Below, piece by piece: positions 502-42,453 of a stretch of DNA of 42,901 nt. The stretch is taken from IMG/VR virus record IMGVR_UViG_3300024431_000009, positions 1-42,901 of that record. One strand, 5' to 3'. Below the pieces are notes generated by a model that was not told where the DNA came from, did not search any database, and saw only the letters and a list, made by a program, of their open reading frames with translations. Every line of letters starts with the position of its first letter. The first letter of the stretch is position 1. The translations under genes were made by a program, and so were the position numbers. Origin of the DNA: a virus.

Positions 502-3249
502 ATGGCTCAGTTTGCACGTCCGATTTCTGATCTTGACAACACAGGACTTTGGGCACCAACTCCTCTCTGGTCCCGCATAGATAGCCCAGATGGATTCGTT
601 GTCACATCGGACACTACCCCGACCGTTGACGAGCCGTTCACTGTCGACCTGTCGAACCTCCTTGACGTTGGAGCATCATCGGATCATATCCTTCGAATCC
701 GATGGGCGAAAGCTTCCGGTGGTGGTGGTGGCAAGACCATCCGTATCGAACTTCGGGAAGGGTATGTCAGTGAAGGTTCTCAAGGCACCCTGATCGCCAC
801 AGACGATTACACGATCAACTCGACAACATTACAGACCGACGAAACCACGCTGTCTGCTGGGGAAGCAGACTCGATAACTGACTACGAAGACCTCCAGATT
901 CGGGTGATGGGTGTCACTGGGAACCGAGCATTAAAAGTCGATTACGTTGAGCTAGAAGCCCCCGGCACAGTCGTAAACATCGGCACATTGGCTGAAACCA
1001 ATGCTCTGATCCCAATAGAAGGGCCTCCGACCTATCTCACGTACAAGCCGATCAGCGACCACGCAACCGGATTGTGGATCACCACTCCGCTTTGGTCGAA
1101 GGTCGATGACGAACCCACTGACTCCGCGTCGGAATCCGACAAAATCACAGCGACGGCAAGTTTCGGATCGGCTCAATTTACACTACCCACTGTTGCCACT
1201 CCGCACTCCTATATCGGCTGGCGAATACGAGTCCGGGCCAGAAGCACCGGAACCCTCGACCTTTCCGCCAACATGTTTGTTGTCTCCTCCGGCAACCCTG
1301 TGATGACAGGCGGCCAGATCACCAACCTGTCGAGCGCCTTCGCCTGGTTTGACGTTGGCCTCATCATGAGTAATAGCTCAAGCCCCGCTAGTAGCCCCGA
1401 CGACGTAGTTAATGACATTGACCTGACCGACCTGGGAATCGCCCTGAGCGTCTCCGCACTCGGTACGGGTACGGTCGAAGTGGCTGCGGTTGAGCTACGA
1501 GTTCCCGCCAGTAAAGCGGCCCTAGGCACTCCCGTCTTTGAAGATCTGTCTCTCTCTGTTTCGGGGAGGGCAGGACCGTGGATATCTGACGGCAAGACCT
1601 GGATGGTGGGAATCGAATCAAGTACCAAACTTGCCTGGGCGTTTTCCGCTGTCAACCCCACCGACGGACACAACCCGTCAGAGTGGACTATGGAGTTCTG
1701 TGTCGCTGAATTGGCCTTCAACGGGAGTTGGGGAGGCGGTTCGGCCAACGCCGAGATTGTCGCTGCCGACCGAAGGGAGATAATTGCCATCGACTCGGAG
1801 CTGACAAATGACGGTGAGCTGATGGTGTCGGCTTTCGTTGTCAACAATATGGGGCCAACTCACGCGATGATAATGACTGTCGACCTAGGCACGCTTGCGC
1901 CAGCTCACGGCGTAGGTGCCACGGCGACCGTCCACAACACCTTTCCCTTCATGCGAAGCAACGAGTCGACATCGGTTGCTAACTCCTTCAAGGTTATGGA
2001 CGACGGTGGTATCAGCACTCTATCGGTCAAGCCACTAATTGAGGACAACAACAGCCGACAAGGGAAGGCCATCACCGGCTCCCCTAACACTCCGTTCGAC
2101 ATGGTCTCAGCGGACGGACGACAACACATGTTCTACGCGAAGGGATCGGCCAACGACCAAACCGTTGGGGTCCGGCAGCGGACCATGCGATCTGACCACA
2201 CGCTAGAAACAGCGCCATCGTCCGACGACACCTCTGAGGATTACGCTCGCTTGGGATACGGCGGTGCTTACGACAACGGCTCAACGTGGCGCGTTGTCTC
2301 TGCCCACCCCGAAGCAGATGGCGGCGGGATCAAGGCTCTAGTCCTTAACTCGGCGGACACTCCCACCGTCACCGAAGAACAAGTCTCGACCCGAGATGCC
2401 TACGACGTTGCATACGAGCAGTCTGTGATGGCCTTCGGTCACAGCAATCGCATGGTGGTCGTGTGGATTGATGACGCTGCTGATGCTATCTGGGCTGCCA
2501 GCAGAGTGGACGGAGCAACAACTTGGAACGACGAAGGCCAACAGATTTCAGGGTTAGCAGGCCGTACACGCTTCTCAGCGGTGTCAATCGACTCGGACAA
2601 TGTTGGGGTTCTGGTAGCTGCTACGACAGGTGACATTTTCTACTACGACTTCGCTCTGTCTTTTGGTCAATTCATCGCAGTCGGGACACTAGCCGAAACA
2701 GAATCGTTGATTGCAATAACCAGCGGAGTAACAATCGTTCAGGACGTTGCAACGCTCGCGGAGACGGACGCACCAATCAGCATCGTTCCTGCGAAGATTG
2801 CCAGTATTGGTGTCCTCGCTGAAACAGATTCCCCGGTCGGTATCCAACCAATCAAAGTCGCTCCAGTCGGCACTCTGGCTGAAGTAGACAGTCTCTTGCC
2901 GATACCAGTTCTCGCAGCAACCATCGACATTGCGACCTTGGCAGAAATAGATTCCCTGATCGGTATTTCAGGTATCAAGATTGCTGATATCGGGACGCTC
3001 GCTGAACTAGAAAGCCTCATCGAAGTAAGCGCAACAAAGGTTGCGGCTATAGGAACACTCCTTGAAACCAACCAGCTCGTTACCCTTATCATCACAATCG
3101 ACGCAGCCGCCGGTATCATCCTTCGTGTGAACATTGCCGGTGACTTCGATAGCATCGGCCCGGAACCAGCACGAGGTCTAGGCTTAGTCAGAAGTGGCGA
3201 TCACCAAACGAAGATCTTTAGACCGAACAGAATAATCATCAAAAAATAA
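502..3249 (+). CDS. tail fibre-like protein with C-terminal GTLAE repeats, inverted paralogue
   Basis: This 915-residue protein starts at ATG 502. The N-terminus MAQFARPISDLD is nearly the same as that of the 629-residue fibre at 39388-41277 (MAQFARPITDVD), and a second copy of this module (KPISDHATGLWITTPLW) begins near residue 180, after one isolated GTLAE repeat. The middle, about 340-720, is beta-rich and resembles a sialidase/propeller-like domain by its spacing of W and G, but no clear Asp box is visible. About seven GTLAE-type repeats follow at 725-865, then a basic tail ending IIIKK. It is one of only three rightward genes in the window and overlaps the next start by one base (TAATG). 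A role in adsorption is inferred from the architecture and neighbours. No strong ribosome site is seen; AAGTAGG lies 11 bases upstream. Confidence 0.7.
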   Translation: MAQFARPISDLDNTGLWAPTPLWSRIDSPDGFVVTSDTTPTVDEPFTVDLSNLLDVGASSDHILRIRWAKASGGGGGKTIRIELREGYVSEGSQGTLIATDDYTINSTTLQTDETTLSAGEADSITDYEDLQIRVMGVTGNRALKVDYVELEAPGTVVNIGTLAETNALIPIEGPPTYLTYKPISDHATGLWITTPLWSKVDDEPTDSASESDKITATASFGSAQFTLPTVATPHSYIGWRIRVRARSTGTLDLSANMFVVSSGNPVMTGGQITNLSSAFAWFDVGLIMSNSSSPASSPDDVVNDIDLTDLGIALSVSALGTGTVEVAAVELRVPASKAALGTPVFEDLSLSVSGRAGPWISDGKTWMVGIESSTKLAWAFSAVNPTDGHNPSEWTMEFCVAELAFNGSWGGGSANAEIVAADRREIIAIDSELTNDGELMVSAFVVNNMGPTHAMIMTVDLGTLAPAHGVGATATVHNTFPFMRSNESTSVANSFKVMDDGGISTLSVKPLIEDNNSRQGKAITGSPNTPFDMVSADGRQHMFYAKGSANDQTVGVRQRTMRSDHTLETAPSSDDTSEDYARLGYGGAYDNGSTWRVVSAHPEADGGGIKALVLNSADTPTVTEEQVSTRDAYDVAYEQSVMAFGHSNRMVVVWIDDAADAIWAASRVDGATTWNDEGQQISGLAGRTRFSAVSIDSDNVGVLVAATTGDIFYYDFALSFGQFIAVGTLAETESLIAITSGVTIVQDVATLAETDAPISIVPAKIASIGVLAETDSPVGIQPIKVAPVGTLAEVDSLLPIPVLAATIDIATLAEIDSLIGISGIKIADIGTLAELESLIEVSATKVAAIGTLLETNQLVTLIITIDAAAGIILRVNIAGDFDSIGPEPARGLGLVRSGDHQTKIFRPNRIIIKK
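2671..3100 (+). repeat. GTLAE repeat array, about 7 units
   Basis: In-frame units of about 20 codons with the core (V/I)G(T/V)LAE(T/V/I)(D/E)SL(I/L), encoded on the + strand. They are the same family as the arrays in the two minus-strand fibres, with many synonymous differences between units. Confidence 0.8.
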
Positions 3250-3626
3250 TGGCTGCTACTGACTTTTTTGAATCCCTAGTCCTTGGACATGCCTTGCGTC
3301 AAGAACCATTCTCAATTACCGATTGGTACGCAGGACTATGGAACGCTGACCCAACATCTGCTGGGCAGCTAACGAATGAAGTTAGTAACGCAGAATACCT
3401 GCGGATAGCTGTCTCTTGGGACTCAAACTTCAGCAATACAAGCTTGCTAGCTTGGCCTCAGGCCACATCGAACTGGGGCGACATCACTCACGTTTGTCTG
3501 CTCAACAACCCCAACAAGGGACAAGGCAACATGTTCATCTTTGAACTCTACAACCCACCGCTATCAGTCACCGCAGGAAATTCAGTGGAAATCGTTGCCG
3601 GTGAATTGGTCGTCACCCTGATCTAA
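3249..3626 (+). CDS. small tail fibre-associated protein (Gp80-like)
   Basis: A 125-residue protein whose ATG overlaps the stop of the upstream fibre gene (TAATG), so the two are probably co-translated. The features WYAGLWNADPTSAG, EVSN.EYLR.AV.W, a central WGDITHVCLLN and a C-terminal SVTAGNSVEIVAGELVVTL match the common phage family of about 120 residues often labelled tail fibre or Gp80-like protein (fold: G(L/V)F..ADP...EV......W........H.G......G..L......P..V..G....AG.L...). The exact role is unknown. Its stop overlaps the stop of the convergent gene at 3623 by four bases, leaving no room for a terminator. Confidence 0.6.
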   Translation: MAATDFFESLVLGHALRQEPFSITDWYAGLWNADPTSAGQLTNEVSNAEYLRIAVSWDSNFSNTSLLAWPQATSNWGDITHVCLLNNPNKGQGNMFIFELYNPPLSVTAGNSVEIVAGELVVTLI

Positions 3627-7504: not shown

Positions 7505-8628
7505 GAGTGGCTCACCTCCAACACGCAGTCATCCACATCAAAATGAATGTCCCTGGAAGCCCCTTCGAGCGGGAAAGAGCCATTTTCTATCTCAGCCTCA
7601 ACCACGCAAGTATGGGTATTAGGAGGAGCCGTGGCAGAATATTCATATTTCACGTAGGAGGTAGTCAGGCTGGGGGTTGGACCGAACGCACCAGAAATGA
7701 CATCGGAATCTTTATCGAAGAAAGTGATAGTTACGCGCACACCGAATGGCCCATCGAACGGATCTGACACCGTGACATGAGCAGAATATCGAACAAGGTT
7801 CCCTTCCTCACACCGAGCAGAATACCCCTCTATCCGACCGTTTTTAAGGGCACAATAACTGCCACCTATGGGGGTGGGGTATGTCTCTGTGCTTCCACCG
7901 TCACCAATGAAGAATGAGACTCGCCAGTGGTAGGTGCCTGACCTTGGGTTTTCTGTCGAAAGCTCTGGCGTCGCCGGAGGAACAGCCCCTTCGTTGTTAG
8001 ACCACACAGTCCACCCGTTTACGTCATAATAGAGCCTGTCTTGAATGTTCTCATGAGTCCAATACAAGCTGCCCGTATTCGCTTGCCCAGCACCAAACCC
8101 ATCTCCAGGGAAAGCCATCCCTTTTTGGGGTACACCACCATGATGCGTTATCTTTGGACCTATCGGAACCCTCTCAAAATGAAATTCAAACCCTGGATCT
8201 TTGAGAATATTGCTCCCGAATATGACCGGACCTTCTGAGCAAGGTTCACTTGAACGACGCGGCTCATTAGCGAACGTTGAATCCAACCTGACCCACAAGT
8301 TGGCCCCCACATACATGTCTTGTTCGTCTCGAATCCATTCGCTGACCCCTACCGTAAAGCGCGGTCCGCTCTCAAACCCTGTTACGGCTACTCCCGAGTG
8401 AGTAAAAAAGGGCGGCGAATCGTATGCCCGTCCGAAGTAGACCGGACCCCAAATACCTTCTCCTGTTCCTGTCACGTCGAACTCATATTTGATCTTGTCA
8501 AGACCCGCCCACGTTTCAAGATCTACTTCAGTTTGCTTCGCAGCCTGACGACGGGAATTTAACGGCTGGTTGGTTCTTTGGAGGCGTCTCTGAAGATCAT
8601 GCGCCTTACCAATATCAGATAGCGTCAT
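7501..8628 (-). CDS. two-module minor tail protein
   Basis: This 375-residue protein has four-base overlaps with both neighbours. Residues about 35-125 hold the TGTGE...SPPFF...VGVSEW...GANLW module shared with the 136-residue gene at 6216. Residues about 140-375 form a CBM-like beta-sandwich (NILKDPGFEF..., TYHWRVSFFIGDGG, VRYSAHVTVSDPFDG, IHFDVDDCVLEV) like that in the gene at 6623. The three consecutive genes thus carry the modules A-B, B and A, which suggests duplication and shuffling within the tail-tip cluster. Specific function unknown. Confidence 0.55.
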   Translation of the reverse strand: MTLSDIGKAHDLQRRLQRTNQPLNSRRQAAKQTEVDLETWAGLDKIKYEFDVTGTGEGIWGPVYFGRAYDSPPFFTHSGVAVTGFESGPRFTVGVSEWIRDEQDMYVGANLWVRLDSTFANEPRRSSEPCSEGPVIFGSNILKDPGFEFHFERVPIGPKITHHGGVPQKGMAFPGDGFGAGQANTGSLYWTHENIQDRLYYDVNGWTVWSNNEGAVPPATPELSTENPRSGTYHWRVSFFIGDGGSTETYPTPIGGSYCALKNGRIEGYSARCEEGNLVRYSAHVTVSDPFDGPFGVRVTITFFDKDSDVISGAFGPTPSLTTSYVKYEYSATAPPNTHTCVVEAEIENGSFPLEGASRDIHFDVDDCVLEVSHS

Positions 8629-11600
8629 CTCTGCACCACTCCCCCGCCCTCAAGAATCTGTTTTCTGGTGCAAATAATTTCGAAGTGCATGTAGTCATGC
8701 TTATTCGTCCAATAGCCTCCCCAACCAAAGACGCGGGTATTGCTTGTGGCAGTTCGAATCTTCATGATTCGTTTCACAGCGTTGTAAAAAGAAGGAGAGA
8801 GGGGTCGAGCAAACCAGGGTCCCCAGTGTTCATTACAACACGGATTGATGCCAGGGTTGATGTCAATAGCCAACCCCCAAGCATGAGCCGAATACCTGTT
8901 CGTCCCAGCAATCTTCCGATTACATCCAGCCCAAGCAGCACAGGAAGTGACGTTGTAGTTGTTAGCACCCAACGCGCTCCCCAACCTACGAAACGCCAGG
9001 GAAGCTGCTCTCGGTACTGTCGTAGTCTTCGTGCTGGTCTGAGCAGCAGGTGACCCCCTCAACCTGAAAGTAATCGTCGTCAGATCACTACACCTAGCTC
9101 CCCAATAGGAGTACCGCCACTGTTGAGAGCGAGAGTTAACGGCTCCCCCACCGGTTGCATCATTAGGTTCTTGTTCATAACCACCACCGCTGTCATCCGC
9201 AATGTCTTTGTCCGACCACGAATCATCGTAGGGATAGTTGATGGTGGGTAGCCCTGGAAACAGGTGAGCGTAATCGTCCAAAATGCGTGGATAATCTTCT
9301 GGAAGCTCTGGGTATTCATATACCGGGTCCCAACCATCCGGAAGATCTTCCCCAAACACACCGTCCTTGTCGATAGCTCCAATAGCAAGCAAGTATGCGA
9401 ACAGCGCCGGTGGCATATCGTTATAGGTGTTAACCACCCACGTAGCGTCAGGACCGATACCCAACCAATGAGTTGACACATCCATGAACCATGTACCAGC
9501 GTCCACGTCCATGACGGAGTTGATCCCCTGAAGGTAATGAATGTAAGACTCTGAAGTCACACGCTCAAAGATTCTCACCTGATCGTCGGGTTCGTAGGCA
9601 GGGTTGCCAGCGATGCGGAATTTGCCCTTGCGATATGACCAGTGAATCCACAACGAAATCAAGTAAGCAAACTTGTCAACCTCCTCTTGGGACACAAAGG
9701 GATAGTTCGCCACCAACATGACACGCTCTTGGCCTCCCAGCAGATTCAAGTCACCGGATTTCTCGACAGCTTTCGGGGTAACCTCACCCTCAACAAATCC
9801 AGGCGATATAGAAGTGTGAAGTGTGGGTTGTTCAGCAGCAACAACGTGAATCTCAGAACGCAACGCTTCATCATTGATGTTGACTCCATAGTCGACCAAA
9901 ACTTGAGTCTCATCAATGGTTCTTACACTGTCTGGACCGACAAACCCAACACCGCTGATGAAGTTGCCAGTACTCCAAATGTTGGGCATTCTCCAAACGA
10001 TCCCGCCGGTCGCGTCTACATAGAAAATGAACCCGAGTATCTCCTTGATCTGGTTAATCCCGTCCATGACTGATTTGTTGTCCCAAAATGCTTCGGGAAT
10101 GCAAACAGGCTCAACGGGGAACGCCCCCGAATACGCAAAGTCTCCCCAAGCCCTTCCCTTCCCGTCCACCAAGCTATCTGGAAGCGCCGCATATGCGTCA
10201 GCATCTTTCTGCTTGAGGTCTGCCTCCCACTCCTGCAAAATGTCATCTTGCGGACCGTAAGGCCAATAGAACCCAGACCAAGCAGCGAAGACTTTGATGA
10301 TGTCGGTGTAATCCCTAATGTTCCCAGGAATAAGAGTCTCTATCTCAGTAGTCACATCGACAGTTGTTGTCTTGTCGGGCGTGTAGCCCATCACCTGAAA
10401 CTCTTTGACACCGGCACGATATGGATAAGTGCCAATACCTGAATTAGCCAGATTAGTGAAGATCAACCACACCTCGTCAGCGTTATAAGTCCGACCCAGG
10501 TCAATGTTGAACCACTCTTCGTTCCTAGGAACGTTGACCTTCTTCACATAGAGCTTGTCTGATCCGTTAGGGAAAGCAGGCGTAGAAGTCTTCCCGTACG
10601 GAACCCTGTTAGTCCCTTGCCACTTGCCATTCTCTTTGACCGCGACGTAGCAAACGTATCCTCCCCACTTGGGTTTCATTCTGATTCGTCGGATCGGCTC
10701 ACCGTTACAAACAGACCCAATCCATTCAAAAGACCAGACCTTGTTAGGACCGCTGTTACCGACCGACAGCCAATAAGTGGACCCATCCCCATCGAAGGCG
10801 TGAGAAGCGTGGTGCCCATAGATAGAAGGGTTGTAATGAGGCTTGTACCAAGGGGCTGATGATGAGTCCCATCCCAAACTAGCTGGCATGTGAAAGGCTA
10901 CGTTCTCGCCAATCACCTCTTCCTGACCAGTAGTTACGGGATTGGTCTCCTCGGTAGTGACAATCTCGTCAGCACAGATTTTCAGCGGGTACTGGGCTAG
11001 CGGAATAATCGGTGGGTAGAGCCTCTGTTCGATAAGAAGTTTGGCGGTGTCCCGACACTGGATCGTGATGATTCCTTTGGCGTCGAAAGACACATTGTCG
11101 ATCAACCATGTTCCGGTGAGTATCAGATTGGTGTCATCCCAGGGATTAACCGATCCGTCCGTTCCGTAACCCTGGAATGTTCGTATGACGCGATTGGGAA
11201 TGAACATGTCCGCCCAGATCGGATCAGAATCATGACCCCATCTCGCCAAGCTGGAGGGAGTCTCGCCCCGTCGGAAGGAGTAGTAACCAGGAAACGCCAA
11301 ATCCCCAAGAGTCCTCACCGATGGCCCCTGTACTGATGAAGGAGTTTGACCAGCATGAGTGAGGTCAAGATTGGCTGTTGGGTCAATGGGTCTCTGGTTC
11401 AGAATCGTCATCGTCATCGACGCAGCATCCGACTGGTGGCGAGTGTCAATAGACACAGCTTTAATGTTCGGAATCTCGTAATTAGGTTCGTCCTGTCCGA
11501 ACAAAAGAGTTCGCCAAGGACCAAGTTGACGCAACGTACTCTTCTGAATAACGGCACGAATAACCGGCTTGTTGAGACCTATAAACTGACCCGACTCCCA

Positions 11601-11633
11601 GATGTCCCACATTGCTTCAGGCATGTTTCGCAT
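8625..11633 (-). CDS. tail hub / minor tail protein with C-terminal M15 peptidase
   Basis: A 1002-residue protein. The N-terminal part (1-220) is hub-like and contains SLARWGHDSDPIWADMFIPN and GTWLIDNVSFDAKGIITIQC, common in tail hub proteins. Residues about 260-410 resemble a discoidin-like insertion (HASHAFDGDGSTYWLSVGN ... WFNIDLGRTYNADEVWLIF). The C-terminal 130 residues look like an M15-type (VanY / L-Ala-D-Glu peptidase) domain: the motif SAHAWGLAIDIN gives zinc ligands His917 and Asp924, and HDYMHFE gives Asp980 and ligand His983. This predicts a virion-borne murein peptidase that opens the wall during DNA entry. A repetitive Pro/Tyr/Asp-rich linker (PELPEDYPRILDDYAHLFPG) precedes it. 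Start ATG 11633 overlaps the upstream stop (TAATG). Confidence 0.75.
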   Translation of the reverse strand: MRNMPEAMWDIWESGQFIGLNKPVIRAVIQKSTLRQLGPWRTLLFGQDEPNYEIPNIKAVSIDTRHQSDAASMTMTILNQRPIDPTANLDLTHAGQTPSSVQGPSVRTLGDLAFPGYYSFRRGETPSSLARWGHDSDPIWADMFIPNRVIRTFQGYGTDGSVNPWDDTNLILTGTWLIDNVSFDAKGIITIQCRDTAKLLIEQRLYPPIIPLAQYPLKICADEIVTTEETNPVTTGQEEVIGENVAFHMPASLGWDSSSAPWYKPHYNPSIYGHHASHAFDGDGSTYWLSVGNSGPNKVWSFEWIGSVCNGEPIRRIRMKPKWGGYVCYVAVKENGKWQGTNRVPYGKTSTPAFPNGSDKLYVKKVNVPRNEEWFNIDLGRTYNADEVWLIFTNLANSGIGTYPYRAGVKEFQVMGYTPDKTTTVDVTTEIETLIPGNIRDYTDIIKVFAAWSGFYWPYGPQDDILQEWEADLKQKDADAYAALPDSLVDGKGRAWGDFAYSGAFPVEPVCIPEAFWDNKSVMDGINQIKEILGFIFYVDATGGIVWRMPNIWSTGNFISGVGFVGPDSVRTIDETQVLVDYGVNINDEALRSEIHVVAAEQPTLHTSISPGFVEGEVTPKAVEKSGDLNLLGGQERVMLVANYPFVSQEEVDKFAYLISLWIHWSYRKGKFRIAGNPAYEPDDQVRIFERVTSESYIHYLQGINSVMDVDAGTWFMDVSTHWLGIGPDATWVVNTYNDMPPALFAYLLAIGAIDKDGVFGEDLPDGWDPVYEYPELPEDYPRILDDYAHLFPGLPTINYPYDDSWSDKDIADDSGGGYEQEPNDATGGGAVNSRSQQWRYSYWGARCSDLTTITFRLRGSPAAQTSTKTTTVPRAASLAFRRLGSALGANNYNVTSCAAWAGCNRKIAGTNRYSAHAWGLAIDINPGINPCCNEHWGPWFARPLSPSFYNAVKRIMKIRTATSNTRVFGWGGYWTNKHDYMHFEIICTRKQILEGGGVVQR

Positions 11634-31314: not shown

Positions 31315-31579
31315 CCATGAGGTTCTGGCCGACGACTTTCAGCATCAATTGAACCCTGTCCAACATTTCAGTTTGTTCCTCAGCGGTGACGCGAAGTTCG
31401 CGATATGCCTCTAGCGCAGACGTGAGTTCTTGAGTAGTCATTTCGCGTCGGGACATGCCCATCAACTGTTCGCAAGCGAGTTCTATGCCTTGCATTCGGA
31501 TTTGCTGGACCAAAATAGGTCGAGATTCTCCGTAGAAGTCTTGCAACTCATTAGGAACACGTACTTCAACTTTGGGCAA
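31286..31579 (-). CDS. unknown small helical protein in the accessory operon
   Basis: 97 residues from TTG 31579, overlapping the upstream wHTH gene by 14 bases; a TGA upstream in frame prevents a longer form. MPKVEVRVPNELQDFYGESR is followed by helices ELACEQLMGMSRREMTTQEL and TSALEAYRELRVTAEEQTEM. The N-terminal PKVEVRVP strand plus helices recalls ribbon-helix-helix-like DNA-binding proteins, but the similarity is weak. Function unknown. Confidence 0.45.
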   Translation of the reverse strand: MPKVEVRVPNELQDFYGESRPILVQQIRMQGIELACEQLMGMSRREMTTQELTSALEAYRELRVTAEEQTEMLDRVQLMLKVVGQNLMDDYETSSSA

Positions 31580-31826
31580 CGTGTACTGACCGCATCAGAA
31601 CAACAAGCTGTTTGCCTGTTTCAGTGGCGTGAAGGGTTCTCGCGCGTCCTGGAAGGTGACTGAGAAAGCCTTGTTCGACTAGATCGTTTATGTGGAACTG
31701 TGCAGAGGAACGTGTTCCTAGTCCGACTGTCTCACGTACCTCATCAACAGTGGGACCGAATGAAGCAGTCTCGTAATGATCAATGACTGCCTCTAGAACC
31801 TTGAACTTTGTATCAGAGGATTTCAT
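31566..31826 (-). CDS. LexA-type winged-helix DNA-binding protein, no protease domain
   Basis: Start set to ATG 31826; the longer TTG 31865 form adds 13 residues outside the domain. 86 residues. FKVLEAVIDHYETASFGPTV (helix 1), VDEVRETVGLGTRSSAQFHI (helix-turn-helix), then DLVEQGFLSHLPGRARTLHA (wing) match the LexA N-terminal domain pattern almost position by position, including the GR-AR wing. The Ala-Gly cleavage site and Ser/Lys dyad of LexA are absent, so it cannot self-cleave. A small repressor or activator of phage or host promoters is likely. No strong ribosome site is seen. Confidence 0.65.
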   Translation of the reverse strand: MKSSDTKFKVLEAVIDHYETASFGPTVDEVRETVGLGTRSSAQFHINDLVEQGFLSHLPGRARTLHATETGKQLVVLMRSVHVAQS

Positions 31827-32031
31827 ATCGTTGTCAAGGATACCTGAAACATGCGTGCGATTCAACTCATTGGCAAAACGCGCGTATTAGAAGGAAGATG
31901 TAAAGAGGCAGCGTGTATGTTGGGGCTACTGCCTGCCTGGATTAGTGGCTTCCGCTGTTCTTGTCGGCCTGCCCGATGTCCAGGACTTGTTCGCCCTTGA
32001 ATTTGGAACTCTAGCGTCCAAACGCAAAGCG

Positions 32032-32854: not shown

Positions 32855-33388
32855 CTAGACCAGAGTGGTCAGCTCACCCAACATAGCCAAGTCCGAAGCC
32901 GCAGCCTGAGCTTGCCCATCCCAATAGTGGAAGCTGCCACTGAACGCATCCGAATACTGAACCTTCAATTCATTGAGGCGCATCTGAAGATTGGCGAGTA
33001 TGGCACGCAACACTGTGGCCGACGCCTGTTGTTCGAACGAAACCGGACCAGCTTCCGCTGTGAAGTTGACTGCCAGGTCCATGATCTTCAACCGAAGTAG
33101 TCGGAACCCAGCGGTGATCACAACCAGCATGTGCAGCTCCGTGGGTAGATCTTTTACCTTGGTTGCCGAGTCCGTGATGTAGTCCTTGCCCGTGGTCTGA
33201 GGCGGATCTACATCTATGCCATCGACCACCGTGTAGGTTTGCAACATCTCAGACAACTTGGCATCCCAGAACCCATCTGTGATGTATCCAATCTTGTTCG
33301 CCGCTGACAGAGTGGGAAGCTGTTCGTCACCAGGAATGTTGATTTCCCTATTGAACATTGGAATTAGGTCTTCAATCAAAGTAGCCAT
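32855..33388 (-). CDS. unknown phage protein, last gene of the fibre operon
   Basis: A 177-residue helical protein coupled by a TAATG overlap to the gene at 33388. It opens MATLIEDLIPMFNREINIPG, followed by LSAANKIGYITDGFWDAKLS and a long hydrophobic helix ELHMLVVITAGFRLLRLKIM, then ASATVLRAILANLQMRLNEL and a Phe/Trp/Gln-rich end. This resembles connector-type helical proteins rather than a fibre, and it stands just ahead of the terminase region, but I cannot name the family. No signal peptide or catalytic motif is seen. Confidence 0.5.
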   Translation of the reverse strand: MATLIEDLIPMFNREINIPGDEQLPTLSAANKIGYITDGFWDAKLSEMLQTYTVVDGIDVDPPQTTGKDYITDSATKVKDLPTELHMLVVITAGFRLLRLKIMDLAVNFTAEAGPVSFEQQASATVLRAILANLQMRLNELKVQYSDAFSGSFHYWDGQAQAAASDLAMLGELTTLV

Positions 33389-33738
33389 TATGTGGGCTGT
33401 TCCCCTGGTCCATCGTAGACCGTGTAGATATAGAGGTCAGAAGCAAAATACTTGGTGCCGTTGTCCACCCACGCTTGGGCTGTGTATTCACCTGTCGTTG
33501 TCATGTCAGCACGAACCCAGGTGTAGGTAACAACCCCACCCGTAGGATCAGTCAAAAGGATAGTTCCAGTCCCGAAGCCTGACGTTCCCGCCAGCTCTTC
33601 TTCAATGTTCATCTGAAGATTGGTGAACCCTGTCAGGTCGACGACCACATTGTCAAAGTCCCTATACGTGATTTGTAGGTCTGGCGGAACTTCACCTTCA
33701 GCGAAGGCCCCCAGGTCCGTTTTAGTTGGTGCAGCCAT
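33388..33738 (-). CDS. Ig-like tail/baseplate protein (BppU N-terminal-like)
   Basis: A 116-residue all-beta protein. The strand pattern LQITYRDFDNVVVDLTGFTN, then FGTGTILLTDPTGGVVTYTW, DMTTTGEYTAQAWVDNG and a final LYIYTVYDG strand follows the Ig-like N-terminal domain of baseplate upper proteins (BppU_N): D...v.LtG......d..G.v.Y.W...d....G.Y.a. It may link fibres or receptor-binding proteins to the virion. The palindrome at 33747-33756 is eight bases upstream, and its GAAGGA end gives the ribosome site. Confidence 0.55.
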   Translation of the reverse strand: MAAPTKTDLGAFAEGEVPPDLQITYRDFDNVVVDLTGFTNLQMNIEEELAGTSGFGTGTILLTDPTGGVVTYTWVRADMTTTGEYTAQAWVDNGTKYFASDLYIYTVYDGPGEQPT

Positions 33739-33758: not shown

Positions 33759-36700
33759 TTACGTACCCTCAACTGTAGCGCCCTGTCTGGTGTCATACTG
33801 AACAGAATCCTTAGTTGTGTCCTTCTGCTCGGTGGACACATTCATAACGAAGATGACCGGCTCGCCCAGAATGACAATGATCCCAACCAGAACATCACTT
33901 TCAGCAATGGTCCCAACCGAAGCAATCTTCAATGTGTCGATTGGAATCAGCCCATCGGTTTCTAGAACTGTTCCCACAGACACGCTCTTGTCAGCAGATA
34001 TCGACAGCAGCGTTTCCAGTTCAGCCATTGTTCCGATGTCAACAGTCTTGAATCCTGCTATTGATAGCAAGCTGTTGACTTCAGCAATGGTCCCAACCGG
34101 AGCGATCTTCAACGCGTCGATCGCTATGAGTGAGTCCACCTCCGCCAGCGTGCCCATCTGAACGTCTTTCAATGGGCTGGCAGCTATCAGCGCGTCTAGC
34201 TCGGCTAGTGTGCCAACAGCGGTGATGATCGGTTTGACTGCCAGTATCGGTAGCAGCGTCTCGACTTCGGCCAGGGTTCCGATCTGGGCAACCTTGAGCG
34301 GTTGCACCGGCAGTAGCGCGTCAACCTCTGGGAGGGTCCCCACTCCAAAGCCTCTCCCGCTGGCGATAGCTATCAGGGATTCGAGTTCGGCAAGCGTCCC
34401 GATGTCAGCAATCTTCAAGCCTTGAATTGCCAACAAGGTTTCGACTTCGGCCAGGGTCCCGACCGTTGCAAGCTTCAGCCCACTGACAGCGACCAGCGCA
34501 TCGAGTTCGGTCAGTATGCCAACCGGAGTGATGATTGGTTTAACGGCCAATATTGACAGCAGGGTTTCAATTTCAGCCAGTGTCCCGATGTTCGCGACCT
34601 TGATTGCACCTACAGCTATCAACGCATTGAGTTCAGCCAGCGTGTTGACAGCGATGGTCTGAGCCAATGCTGCCGACACCGGAACAAGGATGTCCGATTC
34701 AGCGAGCGTGCCAATGTCAGCGGTCTTGATTCCACTGATCCCAATCAATGATTCGAGTTCAGCGATAGTGCCAATCAACGCCACCTTCAATGCGCCTATT
34801 GGCAACAACGATTCAATCTCAGCCAGCACACCGATAGCCGTAATGATTGGCTTGACCGCAGCGATCCCAATTAGCGATTCTGCTTCAGCCAAAGTACCGA
34901 TGTTGAAAGTCTTTATCCCGGCGATAGCCAGAAGAGCTTCTATCTCCGCGAGTGTTCCGACTGAAGTGACGATCGGCTTTACGGCAGGGACGGGAATCAG
35001 CGTGTCCGTCTCAGCCAACACTCCGATAGGAGCCAGCTTCAAAGCCTGAATCGCTATCAGTATTTCAGTTTCGCTAAGCGTTCCGATGTTCGCTATCTTG
35101 CGTGCTTGGATCGCAATTAGCGCGTCTGTTTCAGCTATTACTCCGATAGAAGCAATCTTCAAAGCCTGAGCAGCTATAAGTGATTCGACTTCAGCGAGTG
35201 TGGCGACTGCAATAGTTTGTTCGCCTACCACAGTGATCGCGACAAGCGTATCTGTTTCCACCAGAATGCCGACGTTGACCGTCTTGATCCCAGGTATAGA
35301 TAGAAGAGCCTCGACTTCAGCGAGTGTGCCGATGTTGGCAAACTTCGTTGGTGCTATCACCAATAGAGTTTCGTTTTCTGCGAGTACCCCAACCGGAGTG
35401 ATGATCGGTTTGACCGGCTGTATTGCTATCAGTGATTCGGCTTCAGACAAAGTGCCGATGTTGGCAACCTTCACGGGACCAACGGCAATCAATGATTCAG
35501 ATTCGGCCAACGATCCAACTGCTGTGATGATTGGCTTCACCGGCTGAATCGCAAGAAGAGACTCGATTTCAGCCAACGTGCCAATGTTCGCCACCTTGAT
35601 CGCTTGAAGCGCGATCAGAGCCTCAACTTCGGCCAGAGTTCCAATAGTCTCAAAGATCGACACACCCACTGGCACTAGCGCGTCGGTTTCGGCCAGGGTG
35701 CCAATGGATGCAATTTTGATCGCTTGCGCTGCGATCAATGACTCAATTTCAGCCAAGGTGCCAATAGTCTCGAAAATGGACACTCCCGCAGGAATCAGCG
35801 AATCAATTTCGGCAAGAGTGCCGATGTTGGCGATCTTGATCGCTTGCGCTGCAATCAGAGCCTCTATTTCAGCCAACGTCCCGATGGTTTCGAAGATTGA
35901 TACTCCTGCTGACACCAGCACATCGGTCTCAGCCAGAGTCCCGATGGATGCAATCTTGATTGGTTGAGCTGAAATCAGCGTCTCAATCTCAGCCAAGGTG
36001 CCAATGGTTGCGAAGATCGACACTCCCGCTGACACCAACGCATCAACTTCGGTCAAGGTGCCAATGGTTTCGAAGATTGATACCCCTACTGGCACCAGCG
36101 CGTCGGTTTCGGCCAGGGTTCCAATAGGCACAACCTTGATTGCCTGGATTGCTATAAGAGTCTCAAGCTCGGCCAGAGTCGTAACAACTATGATCTGCTC
36201 ACCTGGTTGAACGACTTCGATAACGATCAGACTGTTGGTCTCTGCCAAAGTCCCGACATCCGCAGTTTTGATTCCAGTAATAGAGACCAGTCCATCTGTC
36301 TCAGCCAAAGTCCCGATCACAGCAACCTTGGTGGGGGGTGTTGGGATTAGCGCATCTGTCTCTCCCAACGTTCCGATGGTCTCGAAGATTGAAACACCCG
36401 CAGAAATCAACGAGTCCGTTTCACCCAACACTCCGATAGGTGCAACCTTAAGCGCCTGGATCGCGTTGAGGACATCGACTTCGGTCAGCGTTCCCACCGA
36501 AGTAATGATCGGCTTGAGCGCAGCTATAGAAACCAAAACATCCGACTCGGCAATGGTGCCGATGGGTGCAACCTTGATCGGCTGGACGACCACGAGGGCA
36601 TCCGTCTCAGCCAAAATCGTCACTGCTATGTCCTGGCCACCCGCCTGAACCACTTCAGCAGCTATCAGCGATTCGATTTCAGCCAACGTCCCGATGGTGG

Positions 36701-38735
36701 CGACCTTCTGCGGGAGTGTCGTGGCGACACCGCTCGCCTTGACCTCAACGGCGAACCCGACAGCCGCACGATTAGTCGATGACCAAGACCAAGAGACATC
36801 GAGGCTCTGCCCGCCCGTGTCCTCGCCGCGAAACCACTGACTGCGTAACCGGGTGTCGTTGTTGGCGTCAGACTCGTCGTGAATGTCGATCATTCCCGGA
36901 TCGCCAACCATGTTCTCGATGTTGTCTTGCTTCGAGGCGACTCCATAGGTGACGTTGTGCGTTGCGCCGAACGCGGCGAGAACAACATCAATCTCTTGTA
37001 TCCCCGAGTCAGCACCCACGGGGTCTTGTACGTCTTGGACGATCGCTCCGGAACCATTCGTACCCGACGTGTCAACATTGTCGAACTCAACAATCGACCA
37101 CGACCAGGTTTCCTGTGTGTCCGAGCCGTAATCGAATGTGACCACACCAACAGACGGGGAACTACCGAGCGCCCGGAAAAGTGTCAACCGTCGCTTGGTG
37201 CCGGTAGTGTCAAATTGAAAGTCTCGGACAATAACCCACGTCAGCCCGTTCCCCGAGGCGGTCGGTACAGGCACCGTACCCAGCCCTGTGGCTACGACCG
37301 CGGCGAGGATGAGCCTGTTCGGAGTGGGCGAGATTGACGCTGTCGCGATCGACGTGGCCGGTGTGTTGTCATTCCCTGACGTGAACGGAGTCAGATCCGG
37401 TGTGACGAACCCACTGCTGATCAGAAGGTTCAGCTCGGCCAAAACCCCGACAGCGACCGTCCCTTGGACAAGCGCGGCAGGCACCAAGTCATCCGTTTCG
37501 CCCAGAACCGTGACTGCCTGAATGATTGGCTTAACTGGAACTGAAGTAATGAGTGAGTTGGTTTCAGCCAAAACACCCACCGCAATCGTTTGACCTCCAC
37601 CGGAAACCAGGACAAGCTCACCGTATTTGGTGCTGGTAAGGTCGGTAAAAATGTATCCAATGACTTGGTCGCCGCCGTTGCCTGATGTGTGTGTGAACCA
37701 GATAGCGTCGATCCGATCGCCACCAGTGATCCCGTCTTCTAGCTCAATGGGTGATCCGAAGTTTGCTTTGGCCCCACCAGCAGCAACATTGTAAAAAAGG
37801 TCTTGATCGGTGTGACCACGGAGTGCGTATAGATCACCTTCGTCTTCATCGACAACTAGAGCTACCGCTCGATCAGTACCTCCAAAGGGATCAGACCCAG
37901 GGTCTTGGTCGCCAGTTATGTCGAGACTGCCGTCCTCGCCGTGAAGCTGGACAGCGGAATGACCAAAGGCGACGTAGTTGCTGGTATTGATCCTTCGGGT
38001 TCCACCGTCATCCCAAGAAACAATTTGTTGCGCTCGGCGCAAACCAGCCGTAAAAGCAAACACGAGATCAACTCTTGTGGACAGAGAATCGGACCCGTTG
38101 AGAGTGGTACCTACCTCACCTGTGCTCCCCGCTACTGACATGTAGAAAACAATGTGGGCGTCATCTGAGTTCGACCCAGTCGCTACCACTCCCATCTTCG
38201 CTTCGTCGCCGTTGGAGCGTCCAACACGAACATTGGTGGTCCACGAACCTGACGTGCCGTGAGAGATAGCTAGGTCACGGAAGGTTGATCCCATGTCGGT
38301 GTGTTCTGATCCGTGGAGGATCACTCGATCTGAAGTGCGAGCGCAGATGCCGATCACTTCCTGATCAGGACCGATGTCGGTTTCGAATGTCCCTACTGAG
38401 TCAACCGACCCCGACCAGGAGTTGGTCGCCATGTTGAACTCTTGATATTCAATGTCACGGCTGGGGTTAGACATCGACGGAGTGTGAGAGTCGGAAGACC
38501 AGGCAAAAGCGATCAGGTCAGAACCGAATTTGACCCCCGAAATGGCTCCGATGGCGTTGGTGCCTGCCGTGGTGGTGACCGCCGATCCCCAGGTTGATCC
38601 GCCGTCAGTGGATCGGTAAACGGAGATAGTTGATCCAGTTTCACCTATGGCGAAGAGGTCACCGTCAGACGCAACAAACAACAACCGGCCCGCGAACTCC
38701 GGATATGAATGGCCTGTAATCGTACTTTTGCTCAC
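33759..38735 (-). CDS. giant fibre-like protein, propeller head and about 49 GTLAE repeats
   Basis: A 1658-residue protein. Residues 1-375 are beta-propeller-like, with an Asp box SVYRSTDGGSTWGS (39-52) of the sialidase/BNR type. Three GTLAE repeats (about 380-443) follow, then a beta-sandwich domain (about 444-673, VTFDYGSDTQETWSWSIVEF). After that come about 46 more repeats of 19-22 residues to about 1620, core IGTLAE(T/V/I)(D/E)(S/A)L(I/L), linker often KPIITAVG or VGVSIFETIG. A short C-terminal domain ends TRQGATVEGT and resembles the end of the 629-residue fibre (TQSTLVEGRVV). The long regular array suggests a beta-solenoid or extended stalk displaying the propeller. No transmembrane segment. 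Function inferred: adsorption. Confidence 0.7.
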   Translation of the reverse strand: MSKSTITGHSYPEFAGRLLFVASDGDLFAIGETGSTISVYRSTDGGSTWGSAVTTTAGTNAIGAISGVKFGSDLIAFAWSSDSHTPSMSNPSRDIEYQEFNMATNSWSGSVDSVGTFETDIGPDQEVIGICARTSDRVILHGSEHTDMGSTFRDLAISHGTSGSWTTNVRVGRSNGDEAKMGVVATGSNSDDAHIVFYMSVAGSTGEVGTTLNGSDSLSTRVDLVFAFTAGLRRAQQIVSWDDGGTRRINTSNYVAFGHSAVQLHGEDGSLDITGDQDPGSDPFGGTDRAVALVVDEDEGDLYALRGHTDQDLFYNVAAGGAKANFGSPIELEDGITGGDRIDAIWFTHTSGNGGDQVIGYIFTDLTSTKYGELVLVSGGGQTIAVGVLAETNSLITSVPVKPIIQAVTVLGETDDLVPAALVQGTVAVGVLAELNLLISSGFVTPDLTPFTSGNDNTPATSIATASISPTPNRLILAAVVATGLGTVPVPTASGNGLTWVIVRDFQFDTTGTKRRLTLFRALGSSPSVGVVTFDYGSDTQETWSWSIVEFDNVDTSGTNGSGAIVQDVQDPVGADSGIQEIDVVLAAFGATHNVTYGVASKQDNIENMVGDPGMIDIHDESDANNDTRLRSQWFRGEDTGGQSLDVSWSWSSTNRAAVGFAVEVKASGVATTLPQKVATIGTLAEIESLIAAEVVQAGGQDIAVTILAETDALVVVQPIKVAPIGTIAESDVLVSIAALKPIITSVGTLTEVDVLNAIQALKVAPIGVLGETDSLISAGVSIFETIGTLGETDALIPTPPTKVAVIGTLAETDGLVSITGIKTADVGTLAETNSLIVIEVVQPGEQIIVVTTLAELETLIAIQAIKVVPIGTLAETDALVPVGVSIFETIGTLTEVDALVSAGVSIFATIGTLAEIETLISAQPIKIASIGTLAETDVLVSAGVSIFETIGTLAEIEALIAAQAIKIANIGTLAEIDSLIPAGVSIFETIGTLAEIESLIAAQAIKIASIGTLAETDALVPVGVSIFETIGTLAEVEALIALQAIKVANIGTLAEIESLLAIQPVKPIITAVGSLAESESLIAVGPVKVANIGTLSEAESLIAIQPVKPIITPVGVLAENETLLVIAPTKFANIGTLAEVEALLSIPGIKTVNVGILVETDTLVAITVVGEQTIAVATLAEVESLIAAQALKIASIGVIAETDALIAIQARKIANIGTLSETEILIAIQALKLAPIGVLAETDTLIPVPAVKPIVTSVGTLAEIEALLAIAGIKTFNIGTLAEAESLIGIAAVKPIITAIGVLAEIESLLPIGALKVALIGTIAELESLIGISGIKTADIGTLAESDILVPVSAALAQTIAVNTLAELNALIAVGAIKVANIGTLAEIETLLSILAVKPIITPVGILTELDALVAVSGLKLATVGTLAEVETLLAIQGLKIADIGTLAELESLIAIASGRGFGVGTLPEVDALLPVQPLKVAQIGTLAEVETLLPILAVKPIITAVGTLAELDALIAASPLKDVQMGTLAEVDSLIAIDALKIAPVGTIAEVNSLLSIAGFKTVDIGTMAELETLLSISADKSVSVGTVLETDGLIPIDTLKIASVGTIAESDVLVGIIVILGEPVIFVMNVSTEQKDTTKDSVQYDTRQGATVEGT
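33871..36715 (-). repeat. GTLAE repeat array, about 46 units of 57-66 bases
   Basis: In-frame degenerate tandem repeat; three more units lie at 37405-37591. Pairs of units form a superperiod of about 40 residues in places, with VGVSIFETIG and AIKIASIG linkers alternating. Protein cores are nearly constant while codons vary, so the protein sequence is under selection and most copies are not recent. Confidence 0.85.
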
Positions 38736-39388
38736 CCGATATTTCCTCGCCGGTCAACCCAGGTGTGGGCCGGTTCGACAGCCTTCCAATCGGCCAGGGT
38801 CTTCCAGTTCTGCGACGAGTCGCCTGGACCTCGTTCTATGTCCATGACGGAAACGATATGGATGATCCGACCTCTGGCATTGCCCTGCAATCGGTCTTCC
38901 AGCCCTGAGATGAAGGCAGGTAGCTCTGCATCGGTGTGAGCAGGAGCGGCGTCCTCGTCCACGACGAACGTGAACCTGGCGTTACCCCCGAACCCGAGAG
39001 CGTTGAGGGTGGCCTTCTCCGTGCCTGACCCAACCCAGTCATCACCCATGACGGCTCTGACGGCAGCTTCCGGTTGGAAGTCGTTAATGTTGTCCCAAAT
39101 CCAACTGCCTGGTTCCAGACCGTAGGTGTTGATCCCAGCATCCATCAGGTAGGCGATCAATGCTCCATAGCCACAACCAACTACAAGCACGTCAGCGTTG
39201 TTGTCGAGGCCACGACCAGTCAGCCAGTTCCTACGAGTCTCATACTTAGAGACATAGTCGATTGCGTCGTAGTCAGGGCCATAGGTGATCGGTGGTTGAG
39301 GGTTCTGAACGACTCCATTGATTACTTGTTGGGGTACAGGTGACTTGTAAAGAGTCCTAGCTATCGCCTCGGTCATGAAGGTGGGCAT
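38732..39388 (-). CDS. SAM-dependent methyltransferase-like protein
   Basis: A 218-residue protein between two repeat fibres, coupled by TAATG to the upstream fibre and overlapping the downstream one by four bases. Class I methyltransferase motif I is clear: DVLVVGCGYGALIAYLMDAG (66-85), followed by the acidic end of strand 2, YGLEPG (Glu92). The region before it, YDAIDYVSKYETRRNWL, resembles the entry helix of such enzymes. The C-terminal half (IIHIVSVMDIERGPG ... NWKTLADW) keeps the fold. The target is unknown; coupling to fibre genes suggests that it acts on a fibre protein or its glycan, though some phages carry inactive methyltransferase-like domains in tail clusters. Confidence 0.65.
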   Translation of the reverse strand: MPTFMTEAIARTLYKSPVPQQVINGVVQNPQPPITYGPDYDAIDYVSKYETRRNWLTGRGLDNNADVLVVGCGYGALIAYLMDAGINTYGLEPGSWIWDNINDFQPEAAVRAVMGDDWVGSGTEKATLNALGFGGNARFTFVVDEDAAPAHTDAELPAFISGLEDRLQGNARGRIIHIVSVMDIERGPGDSSQNWKTLADWKAVEPAHTWVDRRGNIG

Positions 39389-41277
39389 TAGACAACCCTC
39401 CCCTCAACCAACGTTGACTGGGTATCGTCATACTCGACAGAAGCAACCCGCATGAGTAGAGCGAACGGCAACCCCTGGACAAGACCAACAGCGATAAGCA
39501 AATCTGTTTCCGCCAGTGTTCCAACTGATTGGACAATCGGCTTCAGGGCTTGAATGGCTACCAGCGAATCAATTTCACTGAGAACTCCGACCGTGACTGT
39601 CTTCAACCCGCTGATCGCAAGCAACGAATCCACTTCAGCCAACGTGCCAATGTCGACGGTCTTGATCCCACTGACCGCCAATAAGCTATCCAATTCTGCC
39701 AACGTACCAACATCAACGGTCTTGATTCCGCTAATCGCAATCAAGGATTCCACTTCAGCCAGCGTTCCGACTGTCTTGAAGATTGACACTCCGACAGGAA
39801 GCAGAGTTTCGATTCCGGCCAGAGTTGTGACAGTGACAGTCTGAGTACCACCCTCCTCAACCATTATGAGAACATCAAGTTCCGCCAATGTTCCAACATG
39901 ACGGTATATGGACACTCCTACAGGAAGGAGACTGTTCACCTCAACAAGCGTGCCGACATCAACGGTCTTGATTCCGCTGATCGCAATCAAGCTTTCAATC
40001 TCCGCGAGCGTTCCGATGGTCTTGAAAATGGACACACCAACCGGCAGCAGCGAATCCACTTCCGCGAGCGTTCCGATGTCCGCGATCTTTATCCCACTGA
40101 TCGCGATCAATGATTCAATCTCCGCGAGCGTTCCGATGGTCTTGAAAATGGACACACCAACCGGCAACAGCGAGTCAATTTCAGCCAGGGTCCCGATGGT
40201 CTTGAAGATCGACACTCCTACAGGTAGCAACGTGTCGGTTTCAGCTAACGTCCCGATATTGGCGATCTTGATTGCCTGAATTGCATTCAAAATCTCAATC
40301 TCAGCAAGAGTGGTAACGGCTATCTCTTGACCCCCTGGTTGCACCACAGCAATAGTGATCAGACTGTCAGTTTCAGCCAAAGTCCCGACATCAGCCGTTT
40401 TGATTCCTGATACAGCCACCAGCGCATCTGTTTCGCCAAGCACTCCGATAGGTGCAACCTTGATGGGAGGCGTCAAAATCAGTGAGTCTGTTTCAGGAAG
40501 AACTCCAACTGCTGTAATGATCGGCTTCACCGGAACAGCAGTAATCAATGAGTCGGTTTCCCCAAGCACTCCAATAGGAGCAACCTTGATAGGAGGCGTC
40601 GGAATCAGTGAGTCTGTCTCAGCGAAAACTCCGATGGCAGTAATGATCGGCTTCTCCGCAGCCGCAGTAATCAGAGAATCTGTTTGAGCAAGAACCCCAA
40701 CCGCCTGGATGATCGGTTTCACCGGATCAGCAGCAACGAGTGAATTGGTTTCAGCCATGACACCCACAGCAATCGTCTGACCACCCGCAGCATCAGGAAA
40801 TTCGAACTCAGCGGCATCAACAACCAGAGAACGGTCTGCACCACCCTGCGCTCCCCGACCCCACAGGGTGAAGTACAGGTCGTTGTAATCCGTGATGTTG
40901 TCGGCTTCGGTGCCGGTCAGCGTATAGGCGCTGGTGAGTTCGGTGGCGTCGAAGATGGTGACCGTGTTGTCGGCAATCAGCGTCCCGACATCGGGGACTC
41001 CCTGCCACAGCTCAAAGTGCCCGATAATGTCTCGGGTGGACGAGCTGGCCCACAAGACTCGGAGAATATGGTCGACGTTAACGGCTGGGTCAGTCAGGCC
41101 AGAGTTGGTAGCCTCCAGATCGAGGTCAGTCGTATTGGTGTTGTTGCCAACTAGCTCAGAGGCAACCGTGACATCGTCACCACCACCACCGATGTCCTCA
41201 TCAATCTTCGAGAAGAACGGCGTTAATGACCAAGAGCCAGCATCAACATCTGTTATTGGACGTGCGAACTGCGCCAT
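39388..41277 (-). CDS. fibre-like protein with about 21 GTLAE repeats
   Basis: A 629-residue protein. The N-terminal 165 residues are a beta-sandwich starting MAQFARPITDVD; the same opening is found in the inverted gene at 502, so both may attach to the virion in the same way. About 21 repeats with the core (I/V)G(T/V)LAE(T/V/I)(D/E)SL(I/L) follow from residue 166 to 598, then a short C-terminal domain (FALLMRVASVEYDDTQSTLV) resembling that of the 1658-residue protein. One unit has LAGIE in place of LAEIE. No catalytic residues. Probably a tail or capsid fibre. Confidence 0.65.
   Translation of the reverse strand: MAQFARPITDVDAGSWSLTPFFSKIDEDIGGGGDDVTVASELVGNNTNTTDLDLEATNSGLTDPAVNVDHILRVLWASSSTRDIIGHFELWQGVPDVGTLIADNTVTIFDATELTSAYTLTGTEADNITDYNDLYFTLWGRGAQGGADRSLVVDAAEFEFPDAAGGQTIAVGVMAETNSLVAADPVKPIIQAVGVLAQTDSLITAAAEKPIITAIGVFAETDSLIPTPPIKVAPIGVLGETDSLITAVPVKPIITAVGVLPETDSLILTPPIKVAPIGVLGETDALVAVSGIKTADVGTLAETDSLITIAVVQPGGQEIAVTTLAEIEILNAIQAIKIANIGTLAETDTLLPVGVSIFKTIGTLAEIDSLLPVGVSIFKTIGTLAEIESLIAISGIKIADIGTLAEVDSLLPVGVSIFKTIGTLAEIESLIAISGIKTVDVGTLVEVNSLLPVGVSIYRHVGTLAELDVLIMVEEGGTQTVTVTTLAGIETLLPVGVSIFKTVGTLAEVESLIAISGIKTVDVGTLAELDSLLAVSGIKTVDIGTLAEVDSLLAISGLKTVTVGVLSEIDSLVAIQALKPIVQSVGTLAETDLLIAVGLVQGLPFALLMRVASVEYDDTQSTLVEGRVV
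39483..40780 (-). repeat. GTLAE repeat array, about 21 units
   Basis: Same family as 33871-36715 and 2671-3100. Three units in a row carry the linker VGVSIFKTIG, and proline-rich KPIITAVG linkers dominate the N-terminal third. Confidence 0.85.
39994..40166 (-). repeat. exact 53-base direct repeat inside the fibre array
   Basis: 39994-40046 and 40114-40166 are identical over 53 bases, 120 bases apart, exactly two repeat units. Most other units differ at many synonymous sites, so this pair looks recent, produced by unequal recombination or slippage. Confidence 0.75.
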
Positions 41278-41293
41278 TACAGATCGCTAGGAC

Positions 41294-41740
41294 CTATGCA
41301 GCAGTCCAGATCCCGTTGGTCTGGTCGTAGTTGGCAGTGACATCATTGCCGTCTGTCGTAACTGCGAAGTCCCACTGACCGATAACACGGTCTGTACCGT
41401 CTCCCGAACCCACCTCTGCGATAAGCAAGGCCACCACATCGTTCGATGCAAGGACCGCTGACCAAGTGTCGTCAGCGTCGAGAACGACTCGCCAAAGGTT
41501 GGCAGAGTCATCAGCCGAGCTGGTGATGTTGCCATTCGTGTGAGTCTTCCGAACCCAAGTCGAACCTGTCTGCTCAACCGCTCCACCACCAAGAATGTTG
41601 GTGATAGACGCAGAGGCGTAACCATCCTCAAACACCCCGTCGGAGTCCTTCGCTGACAATGGGATGACCTGGAAGTCGGCCCCGTCGTTGAGAAGTTCAG
41701 CGAACCGGCCTTTCATGTCTGTCAAGGCTGTGTCAGCCAT
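41294..41740 (-). CDS. unknown beta-rich protein
   Basis: A 148-residue protein, coupled to the gene upstream by TAATG. DMKGRFAELLNDGADFQVIP is followed by beta segments (SASITNILGGGAVEQTG, NLWRVVLDADDTWSAVLAS) and RVIGQWDFAVTTDGNDVTAN near the C-terminus. No recognised family. Position at the head of the fibre operon suggests a fibre-associated or minor structural protein. Confidence 0.5.
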   Translation of the reverse strand: MADTALTDMKGRFAELLNDGADFQVIPLSAKDSDGVFEDGYASASITNILGGGAVEQTGSTWVRKTHTNGNITSSADDSANLWRVVLDADDTWSAVLASNDVVALLIAEVGSGDGTDRVIGQWDFAVTTDGNDVTANYDQTNGIWTAA

Positions 41741-42135: not shown

Positions 42136-42453
42136 GTGGTGAAGATTGGTCTAAAGTGTCCGACACAGCTCACGGGGAGACCTTTGCAATTCATTGATGA
42201 CTGGCGCGACAACGCTGCATGTTTGCGACAAGACCCAGCCCTGTTCTTCGACCCCAAGACCGTTGATGCGGCTCTAGCCTTCTGTCATATATGCACCGTC
42301 CGGACAGAATGTCTCACGGACGCGTTGTTGTATGGAGAGACAGGAGTGCGTGGGGGAAAAACAGAACAAGAAAGAGAGGCCAAAACCATTCCGAAACAGA
42401 TTGGTTCTGTGAGGGTGGAAGTGGACTACGCCCTATTCTTTGATGATGTATAG
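42136..42453 (+). CDS. whiB: WhiB-family iron-sulphur transcription regulator
   Basis: 105 residues from GTG 42136 (a second GTG follows at once). WRDNAACLRQDPALFFDP (Cys29) and FCHICTVRTECL (Cys50, Cys53, Cys59) give the C...CxxCx5C set that binds a 4Fe-4S cluster. The usual G(V/I)WGG turn is GVRGG here: the tryptophan is replaced by Arg72. KTEQER and a short basic segment follow. WhiB proteins work with the host's main sigma factor; mycobacteriophage TM4 carries one that blocks host WhiB2 function, so a host-control role is possible. This is the only rightward gene at this end and overlaps the convergent gene at 42433 by 21 bases. Confidence 0.88.
   Translation: MVKIGLKCPTQLTGRPLQFIDDWRDNAACLRQDPALFFDPKTVDAALAFCHICTVRTECLTDALLYGETGVRGGKTEQEREAKTIPKQIGSVRVEVDYALFFDDV

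Follow-up and report, generated by a model that had tools for sequence, protein, structure and literature searches.

A family of 20-residue phage repeats behind exchangeable heads, with a possible role as the stalk of virion-surface adhesins

What could be the function of a viral protein in which a single short unit is repeated 49 times? This question is raised by IMG/VR virus record IMGVR_UViG_3300024431_000009, a stretch of 42,901 nucleotides that was analysed at its full length (the window), in which one gene, denoted here as F1658, encodes a protein made largely of such an array. Two further genes of the window, F629 and F915, carry the same type of unit and had been missed in the first-pass annotation, made from the letters alone. 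The three products are proposed to be modular adhesins of the virion surface, in which a swapped head is carried by a rigid repeat stalk of variable length, anchored near its C-terminus; we hold this reading to be slightly better than an even bet. The three genes, and the parts of F1658, are as follows.

33759..38735, minus strand: F1658, GTG start, 1658 residues, made of a head region, 3 units, an insert, 46 units and a C-tail
37581..38735, minus strand: N-terminal head of F1658 (residues 1-385), with one exact Asp-box, a candidate propeller
37389..37580, minus strand: array units 1-3 of F1658 (residues 386-449), by the unit pattern
36696..37388, minus strand: insert of F1658 (residues 450-680), a 232-residue interruption of the array
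33852..36695, minus strand: array units 4-49 of F1658 (residues 681-1628), by the unit pattern
33759..33851, minus strand: conserved C-tail of F1658 (VSTEQK...YDTRQGATVEGT), retained in F629, in the sister phage G001 and in a unit-free G001 paralogue
39388..41277, minus strand: F629, 629 residues, made of a MAQFARPITD head, 21 units and a C-tail
502..3249, plus strand: F915, 915 residues, with 8 units

The array had first been described as about 49 units filling two thirds of the protein and interrupted after the third, and this description holds well: the unit pattern yields 49 units (3 + 46), which account for 61% of F1658, and the insert separates the first three from the remaining 46. The regularity is far from what chance would provide, since 47 consecutive spacings of 18-24 residues were observed, versus at most 1 in 1000 shuffles. 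Only the unit length has to be amended, from 19-22 residues to a distribution that, across the 78 units of the three array genes, is made of 20 (n = 57), 22 (n = 16), 24 (n = 3) and 21 residues (n = 2). Within the 57 units of 20 residues, and counting positions from 0, position 5 is Glu in 56, position 9 is Leu in 55 and position 3 is Leu in 50; in A2, every row likewise has this Glu at six positions. The array is 51% Ile, Ala, Leu and Val, aromatic residues are scarce, Cys and Trp are absent, and hydrophobic residues occupy both strand faces of the unit.

The proposal that selection maintains the repeat structure was likewise supported. The proportion of synonymous differences between units (pS) is 0.725, near saturation, and that of nonsynonymous differences (pN) is 0.395 overall, 0.27 over the first ten positions and 0.52 over the last ten, which shows that the core of the unit is conserved. 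The closest DNA match between any two units reaches only 87%, and the array is therefore old rather than freshly copied.

The repeat of F1658 is not an orphan. Direct searches with the whole protein retrieved no relatives, a probable effect of tools that look for exact peptides or mask repeats, and the array matched neither a repeat family in Pfam nor a solved structure or chain in the PDB, in agreement with the initial remark that no assigned structure was known for it. Matches to Orthopox_F6 and similar Pfam entries were rejected as chance similarity of repeats. The unit is, in fact, an aliphatic variant of a 20-residue 'GQxTETDTAQPITxxK' repeat of uncultured phage contigs, and arrays of the form VGQATETDTAQPITxxKxxx are found on more than 80 IMG/VR contigs, a lower bound set by the DNA-pattern scans used. 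Among these relatives, 817 of about 1000 spacings are exactly 20, and the extra residues of longer units sit in the loop around a Lys; the 20-residue period and the loop-confined insertions are thus common to the arrays of the window and to this ETD family. When profiles built only from the window and only from outside arrays were aligned with hhalign, the probability was 97.8% (E 1e-12). A hidden Markov model (HMM) of 16 outside arrays recovered F1658 (1.2e-75) and the gp13 proteins of the Streptomyces phages Keanu (5e-40) and Hiyaa (gp13-type, 3.4e-31), and none of 200 shuffled arrays. The phages Spocter and Galactica carry homologs of Keanu gp13. An ETD-pattern scan of genomes yielded about eight real arrays, the remaining matches being mostly unrelated low complexity.

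In the PHROGs v4 collection, phrog_14065, a family with no assigned function, matches 46 of 50 array proteins of the relatives, and F1658 itself matches no PHROGs family at E 0.1, phrog_14065 included. F1658 is thus, as judged by profile comparison, a divergent aliphatic branch of a widespread phage repeat that is catalogued but uncharacterized, and is not filed as phrog_14065 itself. The literature searched made no mention of the motif as a phage repeat. A contig from a metagenome-assembled genome of the FCB group of bacteria (L254) contains a 1644-residue frame in which 'GAFEETDDLDGSLSATVELA' is repeated about 31 times, with a Gp80-like gene close by; it may be a prophage that carries a further branch of the repeat.

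What stands in front of the array is far less constant than the array itself. The sister phage G001 (44,729 bases), whose major capsid protein and terminase are 69% and 64% identical to those of the window, has an array about 58% identical to that of F1658, with units 33-49 colinear and with gains and losses of whole units, and its head is a different domain. The two genes that follow are conserved in G001, with counterparts of the downstream immunoglobulin (Ig)-like protein and of the 177-residue protein described below that are 78% and 66% identical, respectively. A neighboring G001 paralogue is made of a head and the C-tail, with zero units. Relatives thus differ by exchange of their heads, whereas they retain the array, a short C-tail and the Ig-like gene that comes next. 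In the window, F629 is 59% identical to part of F1658, and F915 consists of a MAQFARPISD-type domain, one unit, a second MAQFARPISD-type domain, a propeller-like stretch and seven units; short stretches of 1-3 units likewise stand between head modules. The heads recognized among the 50 array proteins of relatives are LamG (5), Vgb-type propeller (2) and CBM_4_9 (1). Past the array, many proteins, F1658 with its tail and, for example, L089, L113, L121 and L168, end in a second short repeat of about 8-12 residues, such as YDTTQTSAEYDDTQ in G001, which is perhaps an anchoring part.

The head of F1658 had been called a sialidase-like propeller, a label that was not confirmed. It has a single exact Asp-box (STDGGSTW, residues 42-49), where several SxDxGxTW motifs are expected of a sialidase-type propeller, and no match to Pfam BNR; a profile including two relatives reached the sialidase-1, Pizza and Ycf48 propellers only at E 0.07-1, and the AlphaFold2 model failed, with a predicted local distance difference test (pLDDT) score of 31. 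A propeller is plausible. A distant homolog of this head occurs in L160 (phmmer, 1.2e-5). The insert (residues 450-680), put down as a beta-sandwich domain in the first-pass annotation, matched no known family among Pfam and the relatives, and kinship with the N-terminal domains of L026, L051 and L090 was sought and not seen.

The following genes of the window surround the arrays.

41294..41740, minus strand: 'NIAKG'-family protein, 148 residues, of the phrog_26662 family (HMM 2e-16 to 3e-26, hhalign 99.7%)
38732..39388, minus strand: methyltransferase-like gene, 218 residues, with weak Pfam matches (MetW/Methyltransf_23), lying between F629 and F1658 and overlapping both
33388..33738, minus strand: Ig-like, BppU_N-like gene, 116 residues, directly downstream of F1658
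32855..33388, minus strand: 177-residue gene that follows the Ig-like gene in the operon, in the position of the Hiyaa head-to-tail adaptor
3249..3626, plus strand: Gp80-like protein (PF23140, 'Podophage GP4 fiber I protein gp80', E 1.4e-19), directly downstream of F915, the end of which its ATG overlaps

The order NIAKG, F629, methyltransferase-like, F1658, Ig-like and 177-residue gene, all overlapping or closely spaced, is in part that of other loci. On the strand of the array, 39 of about 64 loci encode a member of the NIAKG family upstream, at most four genes away, and none does so downstream; the family is among the most constant neighbors of the arrays and has no assigned function. A small BppU_N-like protein occupies the position immediately downstream in nine loci, of which two are near-identical copies of a single locus, and is upstream in none. 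Gp77-like proteins, which Pfam calls GP4 fiber-tail adaptors, are among the next downstream genes in 5 of 47 loci, and head-tail adaptors, portal or terminase genes lie farther downstream, both tallies coming from a gene list in which longer opposite-strand open reading frames misplaced some array genes. That the Gp77-like and BppU_N-like neighbors form one family could not be shown, nor could a head-tail adaptor nature of the 177-residue gene, which did not match Keanu gp14. The Hiyaa genes run gp12 (NIAKG), gp13 (array), gp14 (an adaptor with, by eye, an Ig-like N-terminus) and gp15 (stopper). In the cyanophage Pam4, the NIAKG gene is instead flanked by baseplate genes on one side and a polysaccharide lyase on the other, so that the NIAKG/array block goes with host-binding genes without having a fixed location. 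A Gp80-like gene adjoins the NIAKG gene in Pam4 and lies near the array in L254, and is absent near the array genes at most loci. A search with a Gp80-like query found homologs in 185 phage records, commonly labelled as head protein.

As for the fold, a monomer of seven units, predicted by AlphaFold2 with an alignment of 32 arrays, was all-beta (pLDDT 66.6, predicted template modelling score 0.58). The solved structures closest to it were beta-helices, namely the C-terminal domain of CAP1 (Z 12.0, root-mean-square deviation 3.3 over 121 residues) and, at Z 11.4, 6fm2; left-handed beta-helices and the CsgA fibril came next. Since Z 7-8 is commonly attained by unrelated folds, the value of 12 stands out. 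A Foldseek search of viral models returned no match at E 0.001. With moderate confidence, the array is modelled as a beta-solenoid with one unit per coil.

These elements can be integrated in the following model. An exchangeable N-terminal head, probably carbohydrate-binding, would be held away from the virus particle by a rigid stalk, rich in beta structure, in which 20-residue units are stacked, in its simplest form as a beta-solenoid with one unit per coil. The 46 units would form a rod of about 22 nm if the rise were 0.48 nm, and the length of the stalk would be set by changes in the number of units. Anchoring, near the head-tail joint or the baseplate, would fall to the conserved C-terminal half and the C-tail, together with the neighboring Ig-like (BppU_N-like) protein, and an anchored C-terminus would leave the head pointing outward. 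F1658 may perhaps be located at the neck, which is favored by the adaptor neighbors in Hiyaa and in many contigs. The original description of F1658 as a fibre agrees with its gene context, that of a head-swapped modular protein within a structural gene block, and, going by this context, it may be present in virions.

Several points weigh against this model. In many relatives the array begins after only 20-90 residues, so the protein can do without a head, and the place of F1658 in the virion is read from gene order. The pLDDT of the array is only moderate, falling below 50 in the final residues of the model. Moreover, AlphaFold2 turns near-perfect repeats into confident but unrealistic beta-solenoids, diverged repeats being treated as less prone to this bias (PMC11795689); the bias may act here, although the units of F1658 are well diverged. 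The low-complexity composition and the moderate AlphaFold2 confidence could also be understood if the array were a disordered linker without a fold. However, the strict register, the near-invariant Glu, the restriction of insertions to one loop and the purifying selection on the core all speak for a folded structure, and the high content of Ile, Ala, Leu and Val is atypical of such linkers. A linker without a fold therefore appears very improbable. A more serious competitor, which would leave the role of stalk unchanged, is a trimeric intertwined beta fibre (a triple beta-spiral or a triple-stranded beta-helix) instead of a single-chain solenoid. Many phage fibres are trimers, and hydrophobic residues amounting to half of the unit and present on both strand faces exceed what a monomeric coil needs to bury; in contrast, the monomer was already predicted to stack as a solenoid, and the ETD-type relatives are much less hydrophobic. 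We consider the trimer a real possibility, albeit not the expected outcome.

Two other alternatives concern the role of the protein. The podophage GP4 reportedly has chain-like fibres with a rope, and the arrays, in a comparison that draws on Pfam names, might be the equivalent backbone, stringing Gp80-like, Gp77-like or BppU_N-like Ig subunits together. The overlap of F915 with the Gp80 gene, the downstream Gp77 matches and the Gp80-like genes of Pam4 and L254 would fit this idea, but the absence of Gp80 near most arrays, the lack of a PDB chain matching the arrays and the resemblance of swapped heads on arrays to adhesins make it unlikely. It is even harder to maintain that F1658 is a secreted or intracellular non-virion protein: its gene has no annotated function, which would allow it, but in the window, as in G001 and Hiyaa, the array gene lies within the structural operon and overlaps its neighbors, and the heads are of lectin type. 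In its broadest and much more tentative form, the model of a stalked adhesin would define an undescribed and very widespread class of adhesive fibres, with a length-tunable solenoid stalk, a C-tail held on an Ig-like neck or fibre-tail adaptor, swappable heads and, possibly, a part as the backbone of GP4-type chain fibres.

Elsewhere in the window, a WhiB transcription factor (42136-42453, plus strand; Pfam 1.5e-14) points to an actinobacterial host, and the virus is one of bacteria, probably of actinobacteria. A 1002-residue tail-region protein (8625-11633, minus strand) with a C-terminal Peptidase_M15_4 domain (E 4.2e-15) is, by this domain, likely a cell-wall-cutting tail protein, and a small LexA-type DNA-binding protein (31566-31865, minus strand; E 2.5e-6) is encoded inside the late gene block.

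An orphan-looking repeat is thus tied to a large phage family without assigned function (phrog_14065), with its co-travelling and its swapped parts defined, and cultured Streptomyces phages are named in which the virion place of the repeat protein is directly testable. If the array were a general stalk anchored at the neck or baseplate, a role would be provided for many hypothetical genes of uncultured phages.

Compared with known systems, the array model shares its coil geometry with the right-handed beta-helix of CAP1 (CARP domain, 1k8f), a resemblance of fold only, given 4% sequence identity. The 116-residue neighbor resembles the N-terminal domain of BppU, the baseplate upper protein of lactococcal phages (E 1.8e-4, below the Pfam cut-off), but it is a separate small gene devoid of the rest of BppU. 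The phrog_14065/ETD arrays have in common with F1658 the 20-residue period, the near-invariant Glu, an (E)TD-type core, a loop with one Lys and their location behind variable heads; F1658 differs in its core, IGTLAE(T/I/V)(D/E)SLI, with aliphatic residues where phrog_14065 has T/Q. The closest cultured counterparts are the gp13-type proteins of the Streptomyces phages Hiyaa, Keanu, Spocter and Galactica, annotated as minor tail or hypothetical proteins. Like F1658, they have a C-terminal 20-residue array, NIAKG upstream and an Ig-like adaptor gene downstream, and Hiyaa and Keanu also have, as the window does, an annotated methyltransferase near the array gene; unlike F1658, their repeats are degenerate, their N-terminal head is another one and the Ig-like domain is fused to the adaptor.
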